Positions 34,700-58,739 of a stretch of DNA of 64,000 nt are shown here, piece by piece. The position numbers and the translations under genes were made by a program. Origin of the DNA: Methanosarcina barkeri 3 (lineage in GTDB: Archaea; Halobacteriota; Methanosarcinia; Methanosarcinales; Methanosarcinaceae); contig NZ_CP009517.1 of NCBI RefSeq assembly GCF_000970305.1, positions 2,852,001 through 2,916,000 of the forward strand, given 5' to 3'. Within the stretch, counting starts at the first letter, position 1. Each line of letters opens with the position of its first letter. The notes beneath the pieces were generated by a model, which saw only the letters and a program-made list of their open reading frames with translations, did no database searches and was not told the DNA's origin.

Positions 34700-35213
34700 T
34701 AAAAAATTGATTGTACTATATTTACCTACGACCAGACTGAACCACAAATAATAGCTGACAGGATAATGATAATAATGAAAGGAAAAATTTATGTATGTAG
34801 GAATTCAGGAAGAAACTTTCTACAAGCCAGTTGGCAGTTAGACAGTCAGCTTATAGGATTCAAAAAATATATTGGACGGCAGGGTTATTTTTACTAACCG
34901 TGGAATTATAAGGACTGATGGGAAAATAATTGTTTATGCTTCAGGAGTACTAAAGTAGGGAGCCAGGTACACGCTTTTCTGAGACCTGAGAACATAGTTT
35001 TAAGTAAGACCTCCACACAATCCAGCATCAGAAACTCTTTACAGGGCAAGGTTACTGAAATCTGGATGCTGGAACTCTTTTCGGGTGAATGTTGACTTTG
35101 GCATTTTCCTTATGTCCTCATAACCCAATATAATCATGGAGAAAATACATACTCTTCCTTGAGTTCCGGTGTATGCCCAGTTCAGGACAAGTTCTGTCCA
35201 TGTACTCCGTGTA
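34700..35213 (+). pseudogene. Decayed ModC/WtpC-type molybdate/tungstate ABC transporter ATPase
   Basis: Piecing the three frames together gives the C-terminal half of a ModC-like protein. The order is: DCTI then FTYDQTEPQIIADRIMIIMK (the H-loop, where the family has THDQ) from about 34709; GIQEETFYKPVG; QLIGFK; NILDGRVIFTNRGIIRTDGK to 34958; GARYTLF; RPENIVLSKTSTQSSIRNSL followed by QGKVTEI from 34982; DAGTLF; RVNVDFGIFLMSS; and VYAQFRTSSVHVL ending at about 35208. The N-terminal part with Walker A and the signature motif is missing. At least five frame changes, in-frame stops and the His-to-Tyr change in the H-loop show it is dead. It directly precedes the ModE-type regulator gene, a usual neighbour of mod genes. 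Confidence 0.78.
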
Positions 35214-35225
35214 AAGGTGAAATTT

Positions 35226-35813
35226 GTGAAAGCAAGAACAAAAGTCTGGTTTACGGAAGACGGAAAGACCGTCATGGGTGCTGGAAGAGCTAAGTTACTG
35301 AAGACAATAGAAGAAGAGCACTCACTTCGGAAAGCCTGTAAGAAGCTTGATATATCATATAAACAAGCCTGGATAGTACTTAAAAAAATGAATGAAGCTC
35401 TTGGAGAACCCGCAGTCGTTACAGTGCGAGGAGGAAAAAATCAGGGCACCTTCCTGACTGACCTTGGAAGAAAGTTATTGGCTGAGTATGAAACCAGTAA
35501 GCAGCTTATTAGTGAAACCATAGGGGATGAAACAGCCTGGGAAAACATAAGTTTCAAGTTATCAGCCAGAAACCAGCTACCTGGTAAAGTGCTTGGGGTG
35601 GAAAAAAACGGGCTTGTATCGAAAATTACGATCCAAATGGAACCTTCAGTTATAACTTCAGTAGTCACTGAAGAAGCGGTAGAAAAACTTGATATCAAAC
35701 CCGGAGATAGGGTTTACGCGGTCATCAAATCTACCGAGGTAATGGTTGCAAAAATTGTCGGTGAAAAAGGACCTGCGAAAATTGATTCAAGGGAGATAGA
35801 GCGCTCAGACTGA
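35226..35813 (+). CDS. ModE-type molybdate/tungstate-responsive regulator with one Mop domain
   Basis: DNA-binding regulator that senses oxyanions. Residues 1-105 form a LysR-like winged helix as in ModE (KLLKTIEEEHSLRKACKKLD, then ISYKQAWIVLKKMNE). The C-terminal part is a single molbindin (Mop) domain: LSARNQLPGKVLGVEKNG, then ITSVVTEEAVEKLDIKPGDR and VYAVIKSTEVMVAKI. E. coli ModE has two Mop domains. I take the GTG at 35226, with AGGTGA six bases upstream. The in-frame extension to 35169 is left over from the adjacent ModC remnant and should not be counted as ModE. Confidence 0.88.
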   Translation: MKARTKVWFTEDGKTVMGAGRAKLLKTIEEEHSLRKACKKLDISYKQAWIVLKKMNEALGEPAVVTVRGGKNQGTFLTDLGRKLLAEYETSKQLISETIGDETAWENISFKLSARNQLPGKVLGVEKNGLVSKITIQMEPSVITSVVTEEAVEKLDIKPGDRVYAVIKSTEVMVAKIVGEKGPAKIDSREIERSD

Positions 35814-50326: not shown

Positions 50327-51243
50327 CTGATCCAGCCTCCGTTATGGTTTTTCATTTCAGGGTGTTTTCTGAAACACTCAATACTCGAGTATCTGCACCT
50401 CTCATGGAAAAAACAGCCATCGGGAAGGCTTATCCTGCTAGGGCTCTGCCCGCTAAGGGGAACAAGTCCGTTTCTTGGCTGAGCCCGGACAAGCCCTTTT
50501 GTATAGGGATGAGAAGGTGCGTTCAAAACCTTTGAAGCCTTATCCAGTTCTACAATCTCTCCTGCATACATCACAGCTATCCGGTCGCATACCTCAAGAG
50601 CCAGATCGAGATCATGGGTGATCAGGAGCATTGTCTTCCCATAATCATTTTTAATTTTAGTAAAAAGTTCCACTGCTCCTTCCTTTGCCTCGGGATCCAG
50701 CCCTTTTGTAGGTTCATCCGCAATCACAAGTTCGGGTTCAAAAGAAAGAGACATACAAGCTATCAACCGCTGCCTCATGCCTCCAGATAACTGGTGGGGA
50801 TAGAGATTGCAGAGTTTTTCAGGATCTCTTAAAAGGAGTTTTTTCATAAGCCTCAGAGATTTTTTCATTCCCTCTTTTTTGTCAATACCTCTTTCTTCGA
50901 AAACTTCCTCTATCTGAAGCCTGTTTTTCAGGACAGGGTTCAGGGCTCCAGCAGGGTTCTGGGGCATAAGAGAAATACGTTTTCCCCTAATTTTCCTGAG
51001 TTCTGAGGGTCTCAGAGAAAAAAGATCCTGTCCTTGGAAAAACACCGCTCCTGAAACATTTGCGTTTGCCGGAAGAAGCCTTAGCAAGGCAAGGCCAATA
51101 ACGGATTTTCCTGAGCCGCTTTCCCCAATTATCCCGAGAGTTTCTCCTTCCCCTACCTTAAAGAAGACGTGAGAAACTGCTTTTACAGTGTTCTCTCCTG
51201 CAGAAAACTCTACCGAAAGATCTTTTATTTCAAGCAAACTCAA
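50302..51243 (-). CDS. ABC transporter ATPase, nickel/dipeptide type (NikD/DppD-like)
   Basis: 313 residues with Walker A IIGESGSGKSVIGLALL, Q-loop SLMPQNPAGALNP, signature LSGGMRQRLIACMSL, Walker B ELVIADEPTKGLD and H-loop LLITHDLDLAL. The C-terminal oligopeptide/nickel extension carries three cysteines (GCFFHERCRYSSIECF), a family feature thought to bind a metal cluster. It overlaps the upstream permease gene by four bases (ATGA). Confidence 0.93.
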   Translation of the reverse strand: MSLLEIKDLSVEFSAGENTVKAVSHVFFKVGEGETLGIIGESGSGKSVIGLALLRLLPANANVSGAVFFQGQDLFSLRPSELRKIRGKRISLMPQNPAGALNPVLKNRLQIEEVFEERGIDKKEGMKKSLRLMKKLLLRDPEKLCNLYPHQLSGGMRQRLIACMSLSFEPELVIADEPTKGLDPEAKEGAVELFTKIKNDYGKTMLLITHDLDLALEVCDRIAVMYAGEIVELDKASKVLNAPSHPYTKGLVRAQPRNGLVPLSGQSPSRISLPDGCFFHERCRYSSIECFRKHPEMKNHNGGWIRCHFQSLQ

Positions 51244-52142
51244 TCGATTTCACCCCCGTCGTGGTTTGGGTCAAGGATATCCCTCATTCCATCCCCAAGG
51301 ATGCTGAAGATGATCACAATGAAAGTTATTGCAAGCCCTGGAAAGATCGTCTGGTAAGGGGCTGTCCTCATGAATTCCTTTCCTGCAGAAAGCATTGCTC
51401 CCCATTCAGGCACATCGGCAGGAAGCCCTATTCCGAGAAAACTCAGTGTAGCAATAGAAAGAATTACATGCCCGAAGTCAATTGTGGCAAGCACGAAGAG
51501 AGTAGCTATGGCATTGGGCACAATATGCTTGCGGATTATGTAGAAATCTCCGGCCCCACCCGTTATGGCGGAAAGGACAAATTCCTGTTTTTTGATAGAA
51601 AGTACCTGACCTCGCATCATCCTGGCATACTTTGCCCAGTGAACTATGGAGAGAGCAAGCATCAGGTTGAAAACCCCAGTCCCAAGTGCCCCCATAATAG
51701 TGAGGGCAAAGATGACACTGGGAAAAGAAAGGAAGATATCTGTAACCCTGGAGATGCTTTCATCCACAAAGCCTCCGTAATAGCCTGCTGCACAACCTGT
51801 GGCAGTTCCAAGAAACAGGGAAATCAGCACTACTCCTGAAGCAATTGAAAGAGAAGTCCGGGCCCCTATAAGGATTCGACTCAGGAGATCTCTTCCAAGA
51901 TAATCAGTACCCAGGATGTGCTCCTCTGAAGGGTTCAGGTTCTTGTTTTTCAGGTCAATTGCATTAGGGTCATAAGGAGAAAGTAGGGGGGCAAAAATGG
52001 AAAGTCCGGCAAAAAGCAAAAGAGCTGCCAGTGCAAAAAGCATATCTTTTCTTTGAAAAACTCTTTTTACAAATTGACTTCCGTAAGCTTCAGGAAGCGA
52101 AAAATTCTTTTTTCTTAACCTATTAGTAAATACATTGTCCAT
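51240..52142 (-). CDS. ABC transporter permease, nickel/dipeptide type (NikC/DppC-like)
   Basis: 300 residues, six membrane helices. The N-terminal segment LLSPYDPNAIDLKNKNLNPS and HILGTDYLGRDLLSRILIGA match the OppC/NikC family. The ATPase-contact EAA loop is visible as VLSAITGGAGDFYIIRKHIV. It lies five bases from the second permease gene. Confidence 0.93.
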   Translation of the reverse strand: MDNVFTNRLRKKNFSLPEAYGSQFVKRVFQRKDMLFALAALLLFAGLSIFAPLLSPYDPNAIDLKNKNLNPSEEHILGTDYLGRDLLSRILIGARTSLSIASGVVLISLFLGTATGCAAGYYGGFVDESISRVTDIFLSFPSVIFALTIMGALGTGVFNLMLALSIVHWAKYARMMRGQVLSIKKQEFVLSAITGGAGDFYIIRKHIVPNAIATLFVLATIDFGHVILSIATLSFLGIGLPADVPEWGAMLSAGKEFMRTAPYQTIFPGLAITFIVIIFSILGDGMRDILDPNHDGGEID

Positions 52143-52147
52143 AAATA

Positions 52148-53089
52148 TCAGCCGTACCTTATCCGTGGGTCCAGATGCGTATAGAGCATATCCACAAGGA
52201 AATGCACAAAGAGGAACATCATAACGATCGCAAGCACACAGCCCTGGACCACAGGCAAATCCCTGGCAGAAATCGAGTCTACAAGCAAGCTTCCTATCCC
52301 TGGCCAGGCAAAGATCTTTTCAATCACAACAGTCCCTCCAAGCAAGCCTCCCATCTGAAAACCAATAACTGTGATAACAGGTAGCATTGCATTTTTAAGC
52401 GCATGCCTGCTTACGATTTTCCATAAAGGAAGCCCTTTGGCTTTTGCAAACCTGATATATTCCTGTCCCAGGGTCTCAAGCATGCTTGTCCTTGTAACTC
52501 TCATAACCGCAGCAACGGAATGAAGAGAAAGTGCTGCAGCGGGCAAAAGCAGATTTTCCAGACTCCCGTAACCAGTCACAGGTACAAGTTTCAGCCTCAG
52601 GGAAAATATCAGAATAAGAAGCAGGGCTACCCAGAAACCAGGCATTGAAACTCCAAAGAGAGTCACAATCCTAAGAATGTGATCCGAAATTTTGTTTTCC
52701 CTGATAGCTGAGTAAATTCCCAGACTTACTCCTGCAAGTATTGCAATTAGCATACTCATCACAGCGAGCTGAATAGTTGCTGGAAGGCGTAAAGCCAGAA
52801 GGTAAAGAACTGGCTTTTTGAAAACATAGGAGGTTCCTATGTCCCCTCTTAATACTGCTTCTTTAATCCACCTGAAAAACTGCAGGTAAAGAGGGTCATC
52901 CAGGTCATATTTATCTGAAATCTGGTTAAGCTGTTCTTCTGTTACGCTTTCTTCCAGGCCCACGAATGTGTGCTTGAGGACTAACTTAGCCGTGCCTCCA
53001 GGAATTACATTCATAAGGAAAAAGGTCAAAGCACAAACTGCAAAAATCGTAAGTGCCATGAAACCTACCCTTTTTATGAAATATTTCAT
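52148..53089 (-). CDS. ABC transporter permease, nickel/dipeptide type (NikB/DppB-like)
   Basis: 313 residues with six membrane helices. The N-terminal FLMNVIPGGTAKLVL and DPLYLQFFRWIKEAVLRGDI are typical of OppB/NikB. EAA loop: YIRFAKAKGLPLWKIVSRHA. The binding-protein gene lies 125 bases upstream, the only sizeable gap between transporter genes in this operon. Confidence 0.93.
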   Translation of the reverse strand: MKYFIKRVGFMALTIFAVCALTFFLMNVIPGGTAKLVLKHTFVGLEESVTEEQLNQISDKYDLDDPLYLQFFRWIKEAVLRGDIGTSYVFKKPVLYLLALRLPATIQLAVMSMLIAILAGVSLGIYSAIRENKISDHILRIVTLFGVSMPGFWVALLLILIFSLRLKLVPVTGYGSLENLLLPAAALSLHSVAAVMRVTRTSMLETLGQEYIRFAKAKGLPLWKIVSRHALKNAMLPVITVIGFQMGGLLGGTVVIEKIFAWPGIGSLLVDSISARDLPVVQGCVLAIVMMFLFVHFLVDMLYTHLDPRIRYG

Positions 53090-53214
53090 GGTTTTTCCTC
53101 AACCCGGACAGAAAGCAAGTCTCAAAGCAAGTCTCTCCATCCGTACTACTCTGAGTAAATATGAGTCCCAGGGTTAGAGTCCGAAAAATCCGGACCCTTC
53201 CCTGAAAAATCCTT

Positions 53215-54858
53215 TCAGCTTTTATTTTCCAAATACATGCCCGCATTTATGCGGTAGTCATGAGCTGTCGGATCGAAAACATACCCTTTTACATAATCTT
53301 TCTTTACTATTGCACAACCGTAATAAGCCACTATGATCATGGGCTGTTCATCATAAACGATAGCCTCTACCTCATTGAACTTTTTATAGCGTTCATTTGG
53401 ATCCGTGATTTTTCTGGCTTCAGTTATCAGGGAGTCTACTTTAGGATTGGAATATCCTGGCGTATTGTCAGTTCCGTTTGTCGTGTACCAGTTCGTGAGA
53501 ATATATTCCGGATCGGGAACCATTGCAATATTGTAAGCGGCGAGATAGAGATCCCAGTTGCCTTTTTCCCTTCTGTCATCTATTGACCCCATTTCCATAA
53601 CTTCTGTCTCTATGCCTATGCCTGCCTCCCTTAACTGGGCAGCCATAGCTTCAGCCATTGGAGGTAGTCCGGGCCTTGCAGCATAAGTCATCAGGTTGAG
53701 CTTGAGAGGTTTTCCGTCCTTATCCCTTATCCCGTCCCCATCAGTGTCCACCCAGCCTGCAGCTGTCAGAAGCTCATTAGCTTTCTCAAGATTCTGGCTG
53801 TAGGGCTTCAGACTCTTATTTGCCCAGACCATTGTGGGCAGGAAAGGACCTGCAGCAGCTTCTCCTACATTATATAGCACATTTTCTGCGATATCAGACC
53901 TGTTAATGGCATAGGACATGGCCTGCCTTACTCTGACATCTTCAAGGGGTTCATGCTTCAGATTCAGGTCAAGTTTGTAGACTCTTGGCGTTTTGTATTT
54001 CTCTACATTAATGCCGTCTATGGTGTCAATCCTGTCAGTTTCACTATACGGTACATCGACAGTAAAGTCAACTTCTCCGTTTTCAATTGCCATTGCTCTT
54101 GTGTTCGGGTCAGGTATCCCCTTAAGGATCAGTTTATCAAGCCCTACTTTTCCTCCCCACCAGTTTTCGTTCTTTACAACTGTCAGAACTCTGGTCTGTT
54201 CATCAAAGGATTCGAATTTATACGGGCCCGTTCCAACAGGTTTAACAAGTTCTCCTTTTTCATTATAAGAAGAGGGACTTATTATAGCGGTATCAGGATA
54301 ATGTAGAACTCCAGGAAGGATAGGATTGATTTCTTTGGTTTTGATTTTAAGAGTATAGTCGTCAACTACTTCTATAGAGTCTATTTTTAACATGGAAGCA
54401 ACTTTCGAGTTTTCCGAGATGACTTTTTCCAGAGTGAACTTTACTTCTTTTGCAGTCATTTTGCTTCCGTCATGGAAAGTAACATTATTTCGTAGCTTAA
54501 ATTCCCAGGTATTTTCATCAAGCTGTTCCCAGGAAGTTGCAAGCTCGGGCTTAAGTGAGAAATCTTCATTGGCACCAACGAGAGTTTCGGTTATTGCAGC
54601 TTTCTCGCAGATAAGGGTACCATCTCCATTAATAGGATCAATCGATTCGATGTCCCACATTTCACCAAGTACGAGTGTATTATTTTCAGAGCCTCCTTCC
54701 GGCTGGGAGGCGTTATCCGAACCGGAGGTTACTTCCATCCCGGAAACTGCATCTCCTGTTCCATTTTCGTCTTTACTGCTGCATCCTGAAGTCGTCAGGA
54801 AGGCACAGGTAAGCATGATAATTAACAATATAATCAAGGGGGAGTTTTTACATTTCAT
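53215..54858 (-). CDS. Extracellular solute-binding protein of a nickel/dipeptide-type ABC importer
   Basis: 547-residue SBP_bac_5 family lipoprotein. The signal and lipobox-like segment is LTCAFLTTSGCSSKDENG. The body has the family blocks WEFKLRNNVTFHDGSKMTAK, DVRVRQAMSYAINRSDIAEN and DPEYILTNWYTTNGT. An insert DTDGDGIRDKDGKPL looks like a calcium-binding loop. Ligand uncertain: nickel chelates, dipeptides or another small compound. GGAGA lies seven bases before the ATG at 54858. The upstream methyltransferase gene is 31 bases away, so all seven genes probably share one transcript. Confidence 0.92.
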   Translation of the reverse strand: MKCKNSPLIILLIIMLTCAFLTTSGCSSKDENGTGDAVSGMEVTSGSDNASQPEGGSENNTLVLGEMWDIESIDPINGDGTLICEKAAITETLVGANEDFSLKPELATSWEQLDENTWEFKLRNNVTFHDGSKMTAKEVKFTLEKVISENSKVASMLKIDSIEVVDDYTLKIKTKEINPILPGVLHYPDTAIISPSSYNEKGELVKPVGTGPYKFESFDEQTRVLTVVKNENWWGGKVGLDKLILKGIPDPNTRAMAIENGEVDFTVDVPYSETDRIDTIDGINVEKYKTPRVYKLDLNLKHEPLEDVRVRQAMSYAINRSDIAENVLYNVGEAAAGPFLPTMVWANKSLKPYSQNLEKANELLTAAGWVDTDGDGIRDKDGKPLKLNLMTYAARPGLPPMAEAMAAQLREAGIGIETEVMEMGSIDDRREKGNWDLYLAAYNIAMVPDPEYILTNWYTTNGTDNTPGYSNPKVDSLITEARKITDPNERYKKFNEVEAIVYDEQPMIIVAYYGCAIVKKDYVKGYVFDPTAHDYRINAGMYLENKS

Positions 54859-54889
54859 TTAGGAATCTCCATCTGCTTTTAATGGATTT

Positions 54890-55657
54890 TTATTTTCGGC
54901 CGCAAATGAGATAGTACTGGTAACTGCGTACAATCCGTTCACCCAACGGCATCTTCTCTTTCTGGGCATCTCTTACTTCTTTCAGGTCAAAAACCTGGAG
55001 ATTTTCAAAGCCTGAATTCAAAAGGTACTCCTTTACTTTTTCAAGCGGAGCTCCTCCGGAATGCGGGAGCTGGGCTTTGAGTTCATCAGAATAGCCAGAG
55101 TGCCCTTTTCGGGGGTCTTTTCTTTCAAGGAGCAGTGTCAAAAGAGCACCTGCGTTTCTTCGAACTCTGGACTCCAGTGTCCCGCTGTCCCACACTCCGT
55201 CGATAATCACGACTTTCCCATTCTTCCGCAGAACTCGTTTCCAGTTCTCCACAGCTGCTTTTGGATTTGGGAGTGTCCAGAGAAGATGACGGCTGAACAC
55301 AATGTCAAAAGAAGATGTATCAAAAGGAGGGTTTTCTGCATCCCCTTCCCTAAAGGCTATGTCAGCTCCGCAGGCTTCAGCTTTTGCTTTTGCAATTTTC
55401 AGCATTTGTCCGGAAATATCAATTCCTGCGACCTCATGCCCCATTTCAGCAAATAGTAAACTTAACTCTCCTGTCCCGCAGCCAACATCAAGAATTTTCA
55501 AGCTTTTTTCCGGGAAAACCTTCAAGAAAGCACGCTTCCAGGCATCTCTTTCTTTTTGACTCTGGATCCCATGCCCTGCATGAGTATCAAAAGTCTCGGA
55601 TGCAAGATCCCACTTATGGGCTACCATCTCTTTTATCTGGATTTCTGAAGAAGACAT
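54890..55657 (-). CDS. SAM-dependent methyltransferase, paralogue at the operon start
   Basis: 255 residues, clearly paralogous to the methyltransferase at the other end of the operon. Both share an N-terminal HAGHGIQSQKERDAWKRAF-like block, motif I LKILDVGCGTGELSLLFAE, SFDIVFSRHLLWTLPNPKAA and GKVVIIDGVWDSGTLE. Motif I here is the canonical GCGTGE, whereas the partner has GCGTCE. First gene of the transporter operon. The two enzymes may methylate the same compound at different stages; this is inference. Confidence 0.9.
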   Translation of the reverse strand: MSSSEIQIKEMVAHKWDLASETFDTHAGHGIQSQKERDAWKRAFLKVFPEKSLKILDVGCGTGELSLLFAEMGHEVAGIDISGQMLKIAKAKAEACGADIAFREGDAENPPFDTSSFDIVFSRHLLWTLPNPKAAVENWKRVLRKNGKVVIIDGVWDSGTLESRVRRNAGALLTLLLERKDPRKGHSGYSDELKAQLPHSGGAPLEKVKEYLLNSGFENLQVFDLKEVRDAQKEKMPLGERIVRSYQYYLICGRK

Positions 55658-56149: not shown

Positions 56150-56173
56150 CATTATGTTTGTTTGAACATAATG
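56150..56173. promoter_or_regulatory. Palindromic operator candidate, site 1
   Basis: CATTATGTT (56150-56158), six bases, AACATAATG (56165-56173). The 24 bases match the palindrome upstream of fmdE at 20 positions, and all four differences are transitions placed symmetrically. It lies 32 bases before the ATG of the binding-protein gene. Binding by the ModE-type regulator is inferred. Confidence 0.7.
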
Positions 56174-56205
56174 GCTAAATAATCAAAAGTGTGATAGGCG
56201 TTTTT

Positions 56206-57318
56206 ATGAATCGAAAAGTATATATTATATCGCTTCTCGCCCTCCTGCTCCCAGTTGCTATGCTATGTGGATGTGTAGAAAATACGGATCAACAGGCTGT
56301 ACCGAACTCAAGAACCGAGCTTCAGAACTCAAGTACCGTGCAGATAACCGACATGCTGGGAAGGCAGTTAACCGTGCCTGAGGAAATATCCTCGACTATA
56401 GGCACTTCTTCGCCTCCTGCTATCCTTGTGTATATGCTTGCTCCGGACAAACTTGCAGCCTGGAACTCCAGGCAAAATTTCACCCATCCCTTCATGGATG
56501 AAAATTACTCAAATCTGCCTGTAATAGGAAACTGGTTAGGAACCAAGACCGGAAACTATGAAACTATAATTGATATGCATCCTGACATTGTTATTGAAAG
56601 TACCTCCACGGACGGAGGAACTAATGAAGTTATAGAACGCAGGCAGGAAAATCTCGGCAGCATTCCTGTGGTGGCTATTAATGATTCTATTCTTTTTGTG
56701 ACACAGTCCGATCCTACTATCGAATATGTAGGCAAGCTGCTTAATTGTGAAGCTCAGGCAAAAAAACTGATTGAATTCCGCAGTTCAATTCTTAACGAGA
56801 TAAACAATACTGTAAAAGACATTCCCGAGGACCAGAAAGTACGCGTTTATTATGCCGAAGGTCCAAAGGGACTAATGACCGATCCATCAGGTTCGCAACA
56901 TTCTCAGGTAATTGATATTTGTGGAGGTATCAATGTTGCCGACTGTCCTCTCACGCCCGAAAGCGGCATGACTCAGGTCTCAATAGAACAGGTTATGAAC
57001 TGGAATCCTCAGGTAATTATCACTTCCAATCCGCAGTTCTATTCGACAGTTTACTCTGATTCTCTCTGGAAAAATGTGGATGCTGTTCAGAAAAAACGAG
57101 TGTATCTCGCACCTCAGAATCCTTTTTGCTGGATTGACAGGCCTCAGGGCCCTCACCTTATCCTCGGAACTGCCTGGACTGCAAAAATGCTGTATCCTGA
57201 TCGGTTTGCAGATATGAACCTCTCCGAATTGACTCATGAATTCTACTCGGAATTCTTCCACTATGACCTTAAGGATAAAGAACTTAACATGCTCCTTAAT
57301 CCTGCAACCGAAACCTGA
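56206..57318 (+). CDS. Substrate-binding lipoprotein of the BtuF/FecB/MolA class
   Basis: 370-residue class III binding protein (periplasmic_binding_2 fold). The signal and lipobox are LLALLLPVAMLCGCVEN. Domain landmarks are VQITDMLGRQLTVPEEIS, GNWLGTKTGNYETIIDMHPD, VRVYYAEGPKGLMTDPSGSQ and VEQVMNWNPQVIITSNPQF-like text. It uses a metal or cobamide ligand in relatives; Haemophilus MolA of the same fold binds molybdate and tungstate. No permease or ATPase gene is adjacent. A palindrome shared with fmdE precedes it, so I favour molybdate or tungstate as the ligand. ATG at 56206; the GTG at 56191 would add five residues. Confidence 0.85.
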   Translation: MNRKVYIISLLALLLPVAMLCGCVENTDQQAVPNSRTELQNSSTVQITDMLGRQLTVPEEISSTIGTSSPPAILVYMLAPDKLAAWNSRQNFTHPFMDENYSNLPVIGNWLGTKTGNYETIIDMHPDIVIESTSTDGGTNEVIERRQENLGSIPVVAINDSILFVTQSDPTIEYVGKLLNCEAQAKKLIEFRSSILNEINNTVKDIPEDQKVRVYYAEGPKGLMTDPSGSQHSQVIDICGGINVADCPLTPESGMTQVSIEQVMNWNPQVIITSNPQFYSTVYSDSLWKNVDAVQKKRVYLAPQNPFCWIDRPQGPHLILGTAWTAKMLYPDRFADMNLSELTHEFYSEFFHYDLKDKELNMLLNPATET

Positions 57319-57765
57319 GCATAAACCTGAGCATGGGTGAGAATTTCTCTCCAGAAATTACATGACTTCAAATTTTTTATTGGGGCAAGCAACATGGGAA
57401 AATTTCGATTTTTGCCCTTGTTTTCCTCTTATTAATTATTTATCTCTGTTTAGATCCACTTTAAATAGGTAACTTTAAAATATAATGTGTAGAACACATT
57501 TTTCCAAACTTCAAAAAAGAGTTTCTCTATATGTCCTTTTTAACAGAAAATTCCTATTTTCATCGATAATTTTATAAAAGACCTGTTTATATATTTTAAG
57601 TGCACAGTCCTGTTCAGTATTTATAGAGAGATGTTGAGCTTTACGTATATGGAAGTGGTCAAATTCTGGCTGGTGTTTTTTTATGTCCGGCCAATATTAG
57701 GGTTCTAAACCTTATATTGAAATTTCACCTCAATATCACTTAAAAATAAGTAAGTTTCTGTAAAA

Positions 57766-57855
57766 GAGTTATCTTAAAAAAGTTACCTTAAAAGAGTTAT
57801 CTTAAAAAAGTTACCTTAAAAAAGTTACCTTAAAAAAGTTATCTTAAAAGTTACC
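57766..57855. repeat. 14-bp tandem repeat, about six copies
   Basis: Units of the form GTTACCTTAAAAAA and GTTATCTTAAAAAA follow one another head to tail. Some copies have a G in the A run (AAAAGA). Confidence 0.8.
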
Positions 57856-57883
57856 TATATAATACACTGTATCCTTCTGCGTT

Positions 57884-57952
57884 ATGCTGGAATTTGAAGA
57901 ATTTGGACTGTGCGCCTGCGAGACGCAATCACAAAGTAGGAATCGTTATTAA
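57884..57952 (+). CDS. Possible 22-residue leader peptide
   Basis: ATG at 57884 opens a frame beginning MLEFEEFGLCAC and ending QSRNRY before TAA. It lies about 25 bases after a TATA-like element, so a leaderless transcript is possible. The CxC pair is notable for a peptide upstream of a metalloenzyme operon. Its GC content is higher than the flanks. Evidence for translation is weak. Confidence 0.25.
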   Translation: MLEFEEFGLCACETQSQSRNRY

Positions 57953-58088
57953 ACACGAAATTTAGACAGTTAAAGGTTTGACGCTATCTACGTTTCAACC
58001 GTGTAAGTCCTGACATATAATTCCTTTAGATAACCTGACTGCCTTAAAATAATCCTGTTGGTACTTATGCTGGTATTAATATCATTAG

Positions 58089-58112
58089 CGTTATGTTTAT
58101 TTAAACATAACG
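58089..58112. promoter_or_regulatory. Palindromic operator candidate, site 2 (fmd)
   Basis: CGTTATGTTTA (58089-58099), two bases, TAAACATAACG (58102-58112): a perfect 11-bp inverted repeat. It resembles the general layout of ModE operators (TAAC-type outer bases and AT-rich core). It abuts the first possible fmdE start codon and should overlap the transcription start. Confidence 0.75.
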
Positions 58113-58169
58113 GTGAAACTCACGGTGGTGTACAAATTGAATAAAAATTCAGATGAAGAAAAACGCCAG

Positions 58170-58739
58170 ATGGAGACGATTCTGAAGCAGGTAAAGGATC
58201 CCGAACTACTTTCACAGATTGAAAAGGTTGTCCCCTTTCACGGCTTCCTGACCTCTGGGGCATTAATCGGTATCCAGATGCTCAATATCGCAAAACGGGA
58301 ACTCGATGTTCAGAACGGGGAACGCATATACGTGACCTGCGAAACGAAAAGCTGCATGCCTGACCCATTCCAGATCCTTGCCGGAGCTACCATCGGAAAC
58401 AACGGATTAAAGATCATGAACTTTGGGAAAATGGCGGTCACGGTAAATAAGCAGGCACCTGAAGGAGCTAACAACGTAAAAGGGATCCGAATTATTCTCG
58501 ACCCTGAGAAAACAAAGGATTACCCCAAACTTCACGCCTGGTTCCTGAATACTGAAAAGCTCCCTCATGTAGAAGTTTTACCAATTCTCCTGGCTGCAGG
58601 AGAAAAAGTATACTCCTGGAAGTTTGTGGACATCGAGGTTTCGGTACGCAAAAAAAAGAGGATACAGTGCTGCAAAAATTGCGGTGAAATGTTCATTCAA
58701 CATGATAACGAGCTGCTGTGCGGCGGTTGCACAGAATAA
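58170..58739 (+). CDS. fmdE: Formylmethanofuran dehydrogenase operon protein FmdE
   Basis: Accessory protein of the molybdenum Fmd operon. The FmdE domain contains VVPFHGFLTSGALIGIQMLN and the cysteine stretch VTCETKSCMPDPFQIL. The C-terminus is a zinc ribbon (QCCKNCGEMF then ELLCGGC). A role in metal or cofactor delivery is suspected for the family, not proven. I take the ATG at 58170 (METILKQ). An in-frame GTG at 58113 directly follows the operator and would leave no untranslated leader, although leaderless initiation there cannot be excluded. Confidence 0.92.
   Translation: METILKQVKDPELLSQIEKVVPFHGFLTSGALIGIQMLNIAKRELDVQNGERIYVTCETKSCMPDPFQILAGATIGNNGLKIMNFGKMAVTVNKQAPEGANNVKGIRIILDPEKTKDYPKLHAWFLNTEKLPHVEVLPILLAAGEKVYSWKFVDIEVSVRKKKRIQCCKNCGEMFIQHDNELLCGGCTE

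Follow-up and report, generated by a model that had tools for sequence, protein, structure and literature searches.

Two near-identical palindromes in a 64,000-nucleotide stretch of a Methanosarcina genome (hereafter the window), one upstream of the gene for a class III substrate-binding protein (SBP1) and the other upstream of the molybdenum formylmethanofuran dehydrogenase (fmd) operon, are very probably operators for the regulator ModE. They belong to a conserved DNA signal that looks ModE-dependent and whose targets are molybdenum/tungsten (Mo/W) genes and the binding-protein family of SBP1. The reading that we favour, which we hold to be probable though well short of assured, is that the palindromes are ModE operators and that the MolA-like SBP is part of a type II importer scavenging Mo and/or W. 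The features of the window on which this reading draws first are the following.

35169-35813, plus strand: ModE, with an HTH domain and one Mop (TOBE) domain, 214 aa (TIGR00637, TIGR00638)
56150-56173, strandless: putative ModE-type operator 1, CATTATGTTTGTTTGAACATAATG, 32 bp 5′ of the SBP1 ATG
56206-57318, plus strand: SBP1, a class III (Peripla_BP_2) lipoprotein-like SBP of 370 aa, MolA-like (PF01497, 3.5e-22)
58089-58112, strandless: putative ModE-type operator 2 (proximal site), CGTTATGTTTATTTAAACATAACG, 24 bp 5′ of the fmdE TTG start
58137-58739, plus strand: fmdE, first gene of the molybdenum formylmethanofuran dehydrogenase operon (PF02663, 4.2e-32)

Both palindromes lay exactly where a sequence-only reading of this DNA had placed them, agreed at 20 of 24 positions as it had counted, and were followed by the genes it had named, a MolA/BtuF-type binding-protein gene (Peripla_BP_2) 3′ of operator 1 and fmdE 3′ of operator 2. 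It had also taken the differences between the two for symmetric transitions and hence as evidence of a dimer's site, which held for the outer difference (positions 2/23) but not for positions 11 and 15, which are not partners; moreover, half-sites vary independently at 2/23. With up to two mismatches allowed, YRTTATGTT-N6-AACATAAYR occurs in just these two places in the whole window, against a chance expectation of 0.03 (mean of shuffles), and none of 100 shuffles contained two. Operator 2 matches the 24-bp inverted repeat CGNTAT-N12-ATANCG exactly, and operator 1 has A/T at positions 2/23. The ModE-Mop regulator that the same reading had seen at 35.2 kb was confirmed by its ModE-HTH and Mop domains: it scored 64 bits (1e-17) with TIGR00637, under the curated cut-off of 98.5 bits, and 63.5 bits with TIGR00638, over the cut-off, with one Mop unit rather than two. 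It is the single ModE found in its own genome (G000:C1:2887274-2887516), and its relatives in the PDB include 2ijl, 1o7l and 1b9m.

We scanned the single 4.56-Mb Methanosarcina contig that holds the window with the motif CRTTATGTT-N6-AACATAAYG and found three exact matches, three with one mismatch and four with two mismatches. The six sites with zero or one mismatch lie upstream of two fmd operons, modA, an anf nitrogenase operon, SBP1 and its paralogue SBP2, and three of the four two-mismatch sites adjoin Mo-linked genes (two vnfH-radical SAM, one modD-like).

L001: 5′ of a second fmdE-F operon
L002: 5′ of SBP1, the window binding protein
L003: 5′ of the window fmdE
L004: 5′ of modA-modB
L005: 5′ of a glnB-glnB-anfD operon
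L006: 5′ of SBP2, the paralogous binding protein
L007 and L008: two sites, each between a radical SAM gene and vnfH
L009: 5′ of a modD-like gene, followed by a DUF364/DUF4213 gene

At the remaining two-mismatch site (L010:1501-1524) we looked for a Mo-linked neighbour and found none. A genome scan with downstream genes listed was the check proposed along with the original suggestion of a Mo/W regulon, and the targets that it returned (fmd, modA, anf, vnf, modD-like and SBP genes) support that suggestion, with the addition that the regulon serves nitrogenases besides Fmd. This genome has 15 clear Peripla_BP_2 genes; apart from the two close paralogues and a single weak case, none of them bears a site.

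The same signal recurs across the genus. In 30 Methanosarcina genomes the motif was present 92 times with up to one mismatch allowed, and a reversed control motif was absent; the sites lie upstream of fmdE in most genomes, where operator 2 is kept across the genus, and also upstream of modA, fwd genes, anf/vnf nifH, the SBP operon and other SBPs. A site, with no more than two mismatches, was present at all 30 SBP loci that we examined (46–100% identity) and lay immediately 5′ of the SBP gene or else 5′ of the operon leading into it. A second type of unit under ModE sites, seen at L163, L202 and L205, consists of a more distant class III SBP gene adjoining a BioB-like radical SAM gene.

By sequence, the closest solved structure to SBP1 is PDB 4pag, an SBP of Sulfurospirillum deleyianum (1.6e-52), and MolA (HI_1472) also matches (3e-25). 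An AlphaFold2 model (pLDDT 86.5) gave the same first hit in Foldseek (4pag 5e-31, 3psa 5e-20), with MolA fourth and iron-siderophore binding proteins after it. MolA is the nearest functionally characterised structure; 4pag and 4ovk, which rank higher, came without an assigned function, and for 4pag the sources consulted name no ligand either. The identity of MolA to SBP1 is only about 24%, and several siderophore-type SBPs, YiuA among them, are nearly as good matches. The fold does not fix the ligand. The NCBIfam BtuF model gave 40 bits against a cut-off of 234, on which we rejected a B12-binding identity, and the haem and siderophore models also fell far under their cut-offs. SBP1 likely carries Mo or W.

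SBP1 had been described as an orphan. The window copy indeed has no adjoining permease or ATPase gene, but SBP2 heads a five-gene ABC/methyltransferase/radical SAM operon, and in the M. acetivorans-type orthologue (L076, genome G083) the SBP gene is followed by genes for a FecCD permease and a FecE ATPase. In a tree, SBP1 grouped with barkeri-type SBP1 copies and the G083 copy, and SBP2-type proteins formed a separate clade. By these relationships SBP1 is one of two old paralogues, without an adjoining permease, and does not represent a true orphan lineage. The gene does adjoin a peptide/nickel-type ABC transporter operon (51240-55657), with a class I methyltransferase gene (54890-55657) divergent from or adjacent to it; in several other species, genes of this kind lie beside fmdE.

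The SBP2 operon (L062) lies behind the same operator as SBP1 and has the order SBP2, SAM methyltransferase, a fusion of a radical SAM (rSAM) enzyme to an SBP C-lobe, FecCD permease, FecE ATPase. We traced this order in eight more genomes, either by reading each gene or by similarity, and it is widespread in named genomes; among the Methanosarcinaceae listed in both searches, the presence and absence of the SBP and of the rSAM were identical. The rSAM protein, of about 590 aa, joins a PFL-activase-like barrel to a class III SBP C-lobe (residues about 372-565); by sequence the protein matched 4pag (4.8e-12) and MolA (3.4e-8). By fold, PFL-activating enzyme came top, with 4hn9, 4ovk, 4pag and MolA also found. 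Like AmmeMemoRadiSam-type and PFL-activase enzymes it has a radical SAM barrel and an N-terminal Cys motif (TIGR04337, 88-99 bits, cut-off 220); unlike them it has the C-terminal lobe and co-occurs with a metal importer.

In 2003 Studholme and Pau (BMC Microbiol 3:24) reportedly described that Methanosarcina has ModE and, 5′ of its Mo genes, operators like those of E. coli. Control of modABC and nitrogenases by ModE in Methanosarcinales is also on record (PMC9765008, which refers to Studholme and Pau 2003 and to Chanderban et al. 2021). The SBP/methyltransferase/radical SAM operon does not appear as a ModE target in PMC9765008 or PMC545781, and our literature search found no description of it, although the 2003 ModE paper may list some SBP genes. 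For Methanosarcina, that ModE controls Mo genes was already known; what we did not find described is this operon as one of its targets.

Relatives of the rSAM protein extend the association to other phyla. From a scan of GTDB genomes we kept 80 of 141 loci, from Methanomicrobiales, Methanolliviera, Desulfobacterales, Desulfosporosinus, Deferribacteres, Sulfurospirillum, Clostridium, Chlorobi and Synergistales, with neighbouring genes for SBPs, methyltransferases, FecCD/FecE, DUF364, AnfD and NifH. ModA, above its curated (equivalog) cut-off, adjoins the rSAM family in six loci, a full ModE lies nearby in Sulfurospirillum, and a Mop gene does so in Methanolinea. In Chlorobi and Seleniivibrio, E. 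coli-type ModE boxes lie directly 5′ of the rSAM gene; in Sulfurospirillum they lie near modE. The homologues in Sulfurospirillum, the bacterial host of 4pag, are clustered with ModE, rSAM and ModE boxes. In the bacterial loci, five ModE boxes lay near genes of the system, compared with 0.9 in simulations and one in the reversed control, and exact E. coli-type boxes numbered eight overall versus none; these counts suggest, without more weight than that, a link to ModE. Additional methyltransferases and DUF364 recur in the rSAM/importer clusters, the latter outside the Methanosarcina SBP operon itself, and DUF364/DUF4213 "heavy-metal chelation" proteins have been connected through their genomic neighbourhood with transport of Mo, W and V (PMC2954201). 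In Desulfosporosinus (L131:4193-7899), a trio of distant relatives of nitrogenase D/E/H (22-44% identity) sits between the methyltransferase gene and the rSAM gene, just 5′ of an anf operon.

Methanogen formylmethanofuran dehydrogenases and nitrogenases depend on Mo or W. We propose that SBP1 acts as the MolA-like subunit of a type II (BtuCD/MolBC-like) ABC importer, with its partner permease and ATPase probably supplied by the SBP2 operon under the same operator, and that this importer would scavenge molybdenum and/or tungsten for Fmd and nitrogenase. More speculatively, the methyltransferase and the rSAM-SBP-lobe fusion would probably act on an organic metal ligand, either making the ligand or releasing the metal. 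The broader form of this idea, in which Methanosarcina and many anaerobes use an organic Mo/W carrier whose uptake is controlled by ModE and whose ligand is built, or stripped of its metal, by the rSAM and methyltransferase, we put forward only tentatively. Through this regulon a large and unnamed family of anaerobe clusters (SBP, methyltransferase, rSAM-SBP fusion, FecCD/FecE) would gain a probable metal. It would also make a testable case that methanogens have, besides ModABC, another way of taking in Mo or W, and give a starting point for asking why certain radical SAM enzymes bear half a periplasmic binding protein.

It is also possible, and we regard it as a serious minority view, that the SBP carries the bare oxyanion as Haemophilus influenzae MolA does and that the methyltransferase and rSAM genes are passengers or regulators. 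H. influenzae MolBC-A (HI1470-1472) resembles the SBP system in consisting of a class III SBP, a FecCD-type permease and a BtuD-type ATPase; it has been described as low-affinity, and MolA, the nearest characterised relative, binds molybdate and tungstate directly (PMC4031551). Consistent with such transport, neither the window copy nor the L076 copy has a methyltransferase gene in the same operon. However, the methyltransferase-rSAM pair accompanies the importer all the way from Methanosarcinaceae to bacteria, the rSAM enzyme bears the importer's own SBP C-lobe, and further methyltransferases and DUF364 recur in the clusters.

Less likely, though still deserving some weight, is that the operators belong to ModE but the SBP imports something other than Mo or W that the cell needs under Mo shortage, such as vanadate for a V-nitrogenase, iron for an Fe-nitrogenase, or a cobamide- or haem-like compound. 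Binding proteins for iron-siderophores, nickel, haem and B12 share the SBP fold, and the vnf and anf operons, which fall in the same regulon, have class III SBPs of their own and a permease nearby. Against this, AnfG/VnfG was found in seven of 100 genomes of the family, whereas a close SBP occurred in about 30, so most SBP carriers lack an alternative nitrogenase, which also disfavours an importer of vanadium only. The scores of the NCBIfam BtuF, haem and siderophore models, far under their cut-offs, and the modA, modE and Mop neighbours in other phyla likewise argue against such a cargo.

The identity of the regulator rests on the site itself and on its distribution. The upstream region of E. 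coli modA (read from NC_000913) contains CGTTATattgtcgcctacATAACG, which has the 24-bp frame CGTTAT-N12-ATAACG in common with the window palindromes, and the window half-sites match those of the published ModE consensus, ATCGNTATATA-N6-TATATANCGAT (PMC545781). Across 100 Methanosarcinaceae genomes, a site was present in 64 of 90 ModE carriers versus one of 10 non-carriers (Fisher p 2.8e-4, a value weakened by shared ancestry and incomplete genomes); 26 ModE-positive genomes had no site with zero or one mismatch, and ModE was single-copy in nearly all carriers. Genomes without ModE are thus almost always without the motif, and genome G096, whose ModE remnant is broken by three stops, has no site. 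Single TrmB-type and other regulators do lie near some sites, but given the E. coli-like frame and half-site, the co-occurrence with ModE, the Mo-linked targets and the G096 remnant, we find it very improbable that a regulator other than ModE binds the motif. A Methanosarcina genome estimated at 92% complete (G097) has an AnfG/VnfG gene and lacks both ModE and the motif.

Positions 2/23 were complementary in 32 of 70 distinct sites, compared with 35.8 expected if they were independent, and the six central bases were non-complementary; this independent variation of the half-sites and the non-complementary centre point to protein–DNA recognition. Although both palindromes fold as short hairpins and the proximal fmdE site is probably within the leader, we reject the idea that they work as RNA hairpins in 5′ leaders, which has next to no chance of being right, since the 70 sites show no pairing covariation, the SBP1 leader folds no more stably than shuffled sequences (z 0.11), there is no match in Rfam, and the motif abuts the TATA box in SBP operons.

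At SBP-operon promoters the palindrome lies directly 3′ of a TATA box, TTTTATA[CT], and in fmd2, the second fmd operon, it lies directly 3′ of ACTATATAAAC. The TATA box is clear for relatives and degenerate at SBP1 in the window. In archaea, an operator directly after the TATA box blocks RNA polymerase, so this placement argues for repression, with metal-loaded ModE as the likely repressor. We infer that ModE, encoded at 35.2 kb, senses molybdate or tungstate and binds both palindromes; the metal-bound dimer would sit between the TATA box and the gene and repress it, and a shortage of Mo (or W) would lift the repression.

The fmd promoter has further structure, which we describe from two additional features.

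57854-57864, plus strand: probable fmd TATA box, CCTATATAATA, aligned with CCTATAAATA 5′ of fmdE in most other Methanosarcina compared
57880-57903, strandless: decayed distal ModE site, CGTTATGcTggaatttgAAgAATt, with its right half lost; other species have an intact second site here

The operon extends from fmdE, whose TTG start stands behind a GGTGGTG ribosome site, to at least 62862, with ORFs for an fmdF-type polyferredoxin, an fmdA-type amidohydrolase and more operon genes (read by eye) 3′ of fmdE. Most Methanosarcina fmdE promoters have two sites (L175, L178, L179, L182, L192, L193, L196 and L198), usually 83–85 bp apart (range 79–88), with the distal site near the presumed transcription start. 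Because 84 bp is eight helical turns, the pairing suggests cooperative or looping binding; in the window the distal–proximal spacing is 209 bp. M. acetivorans fmd1 is strongly transcribed in routine medium (PMC2838876), which is at odds with simple repression by Mo at fmd. Directly 5′ of the probable fmd TATA box, at 57752-57856, lies a 14/28-bp tandem repeat (TAAAAAAGTTACCT and variants) in about six copies.
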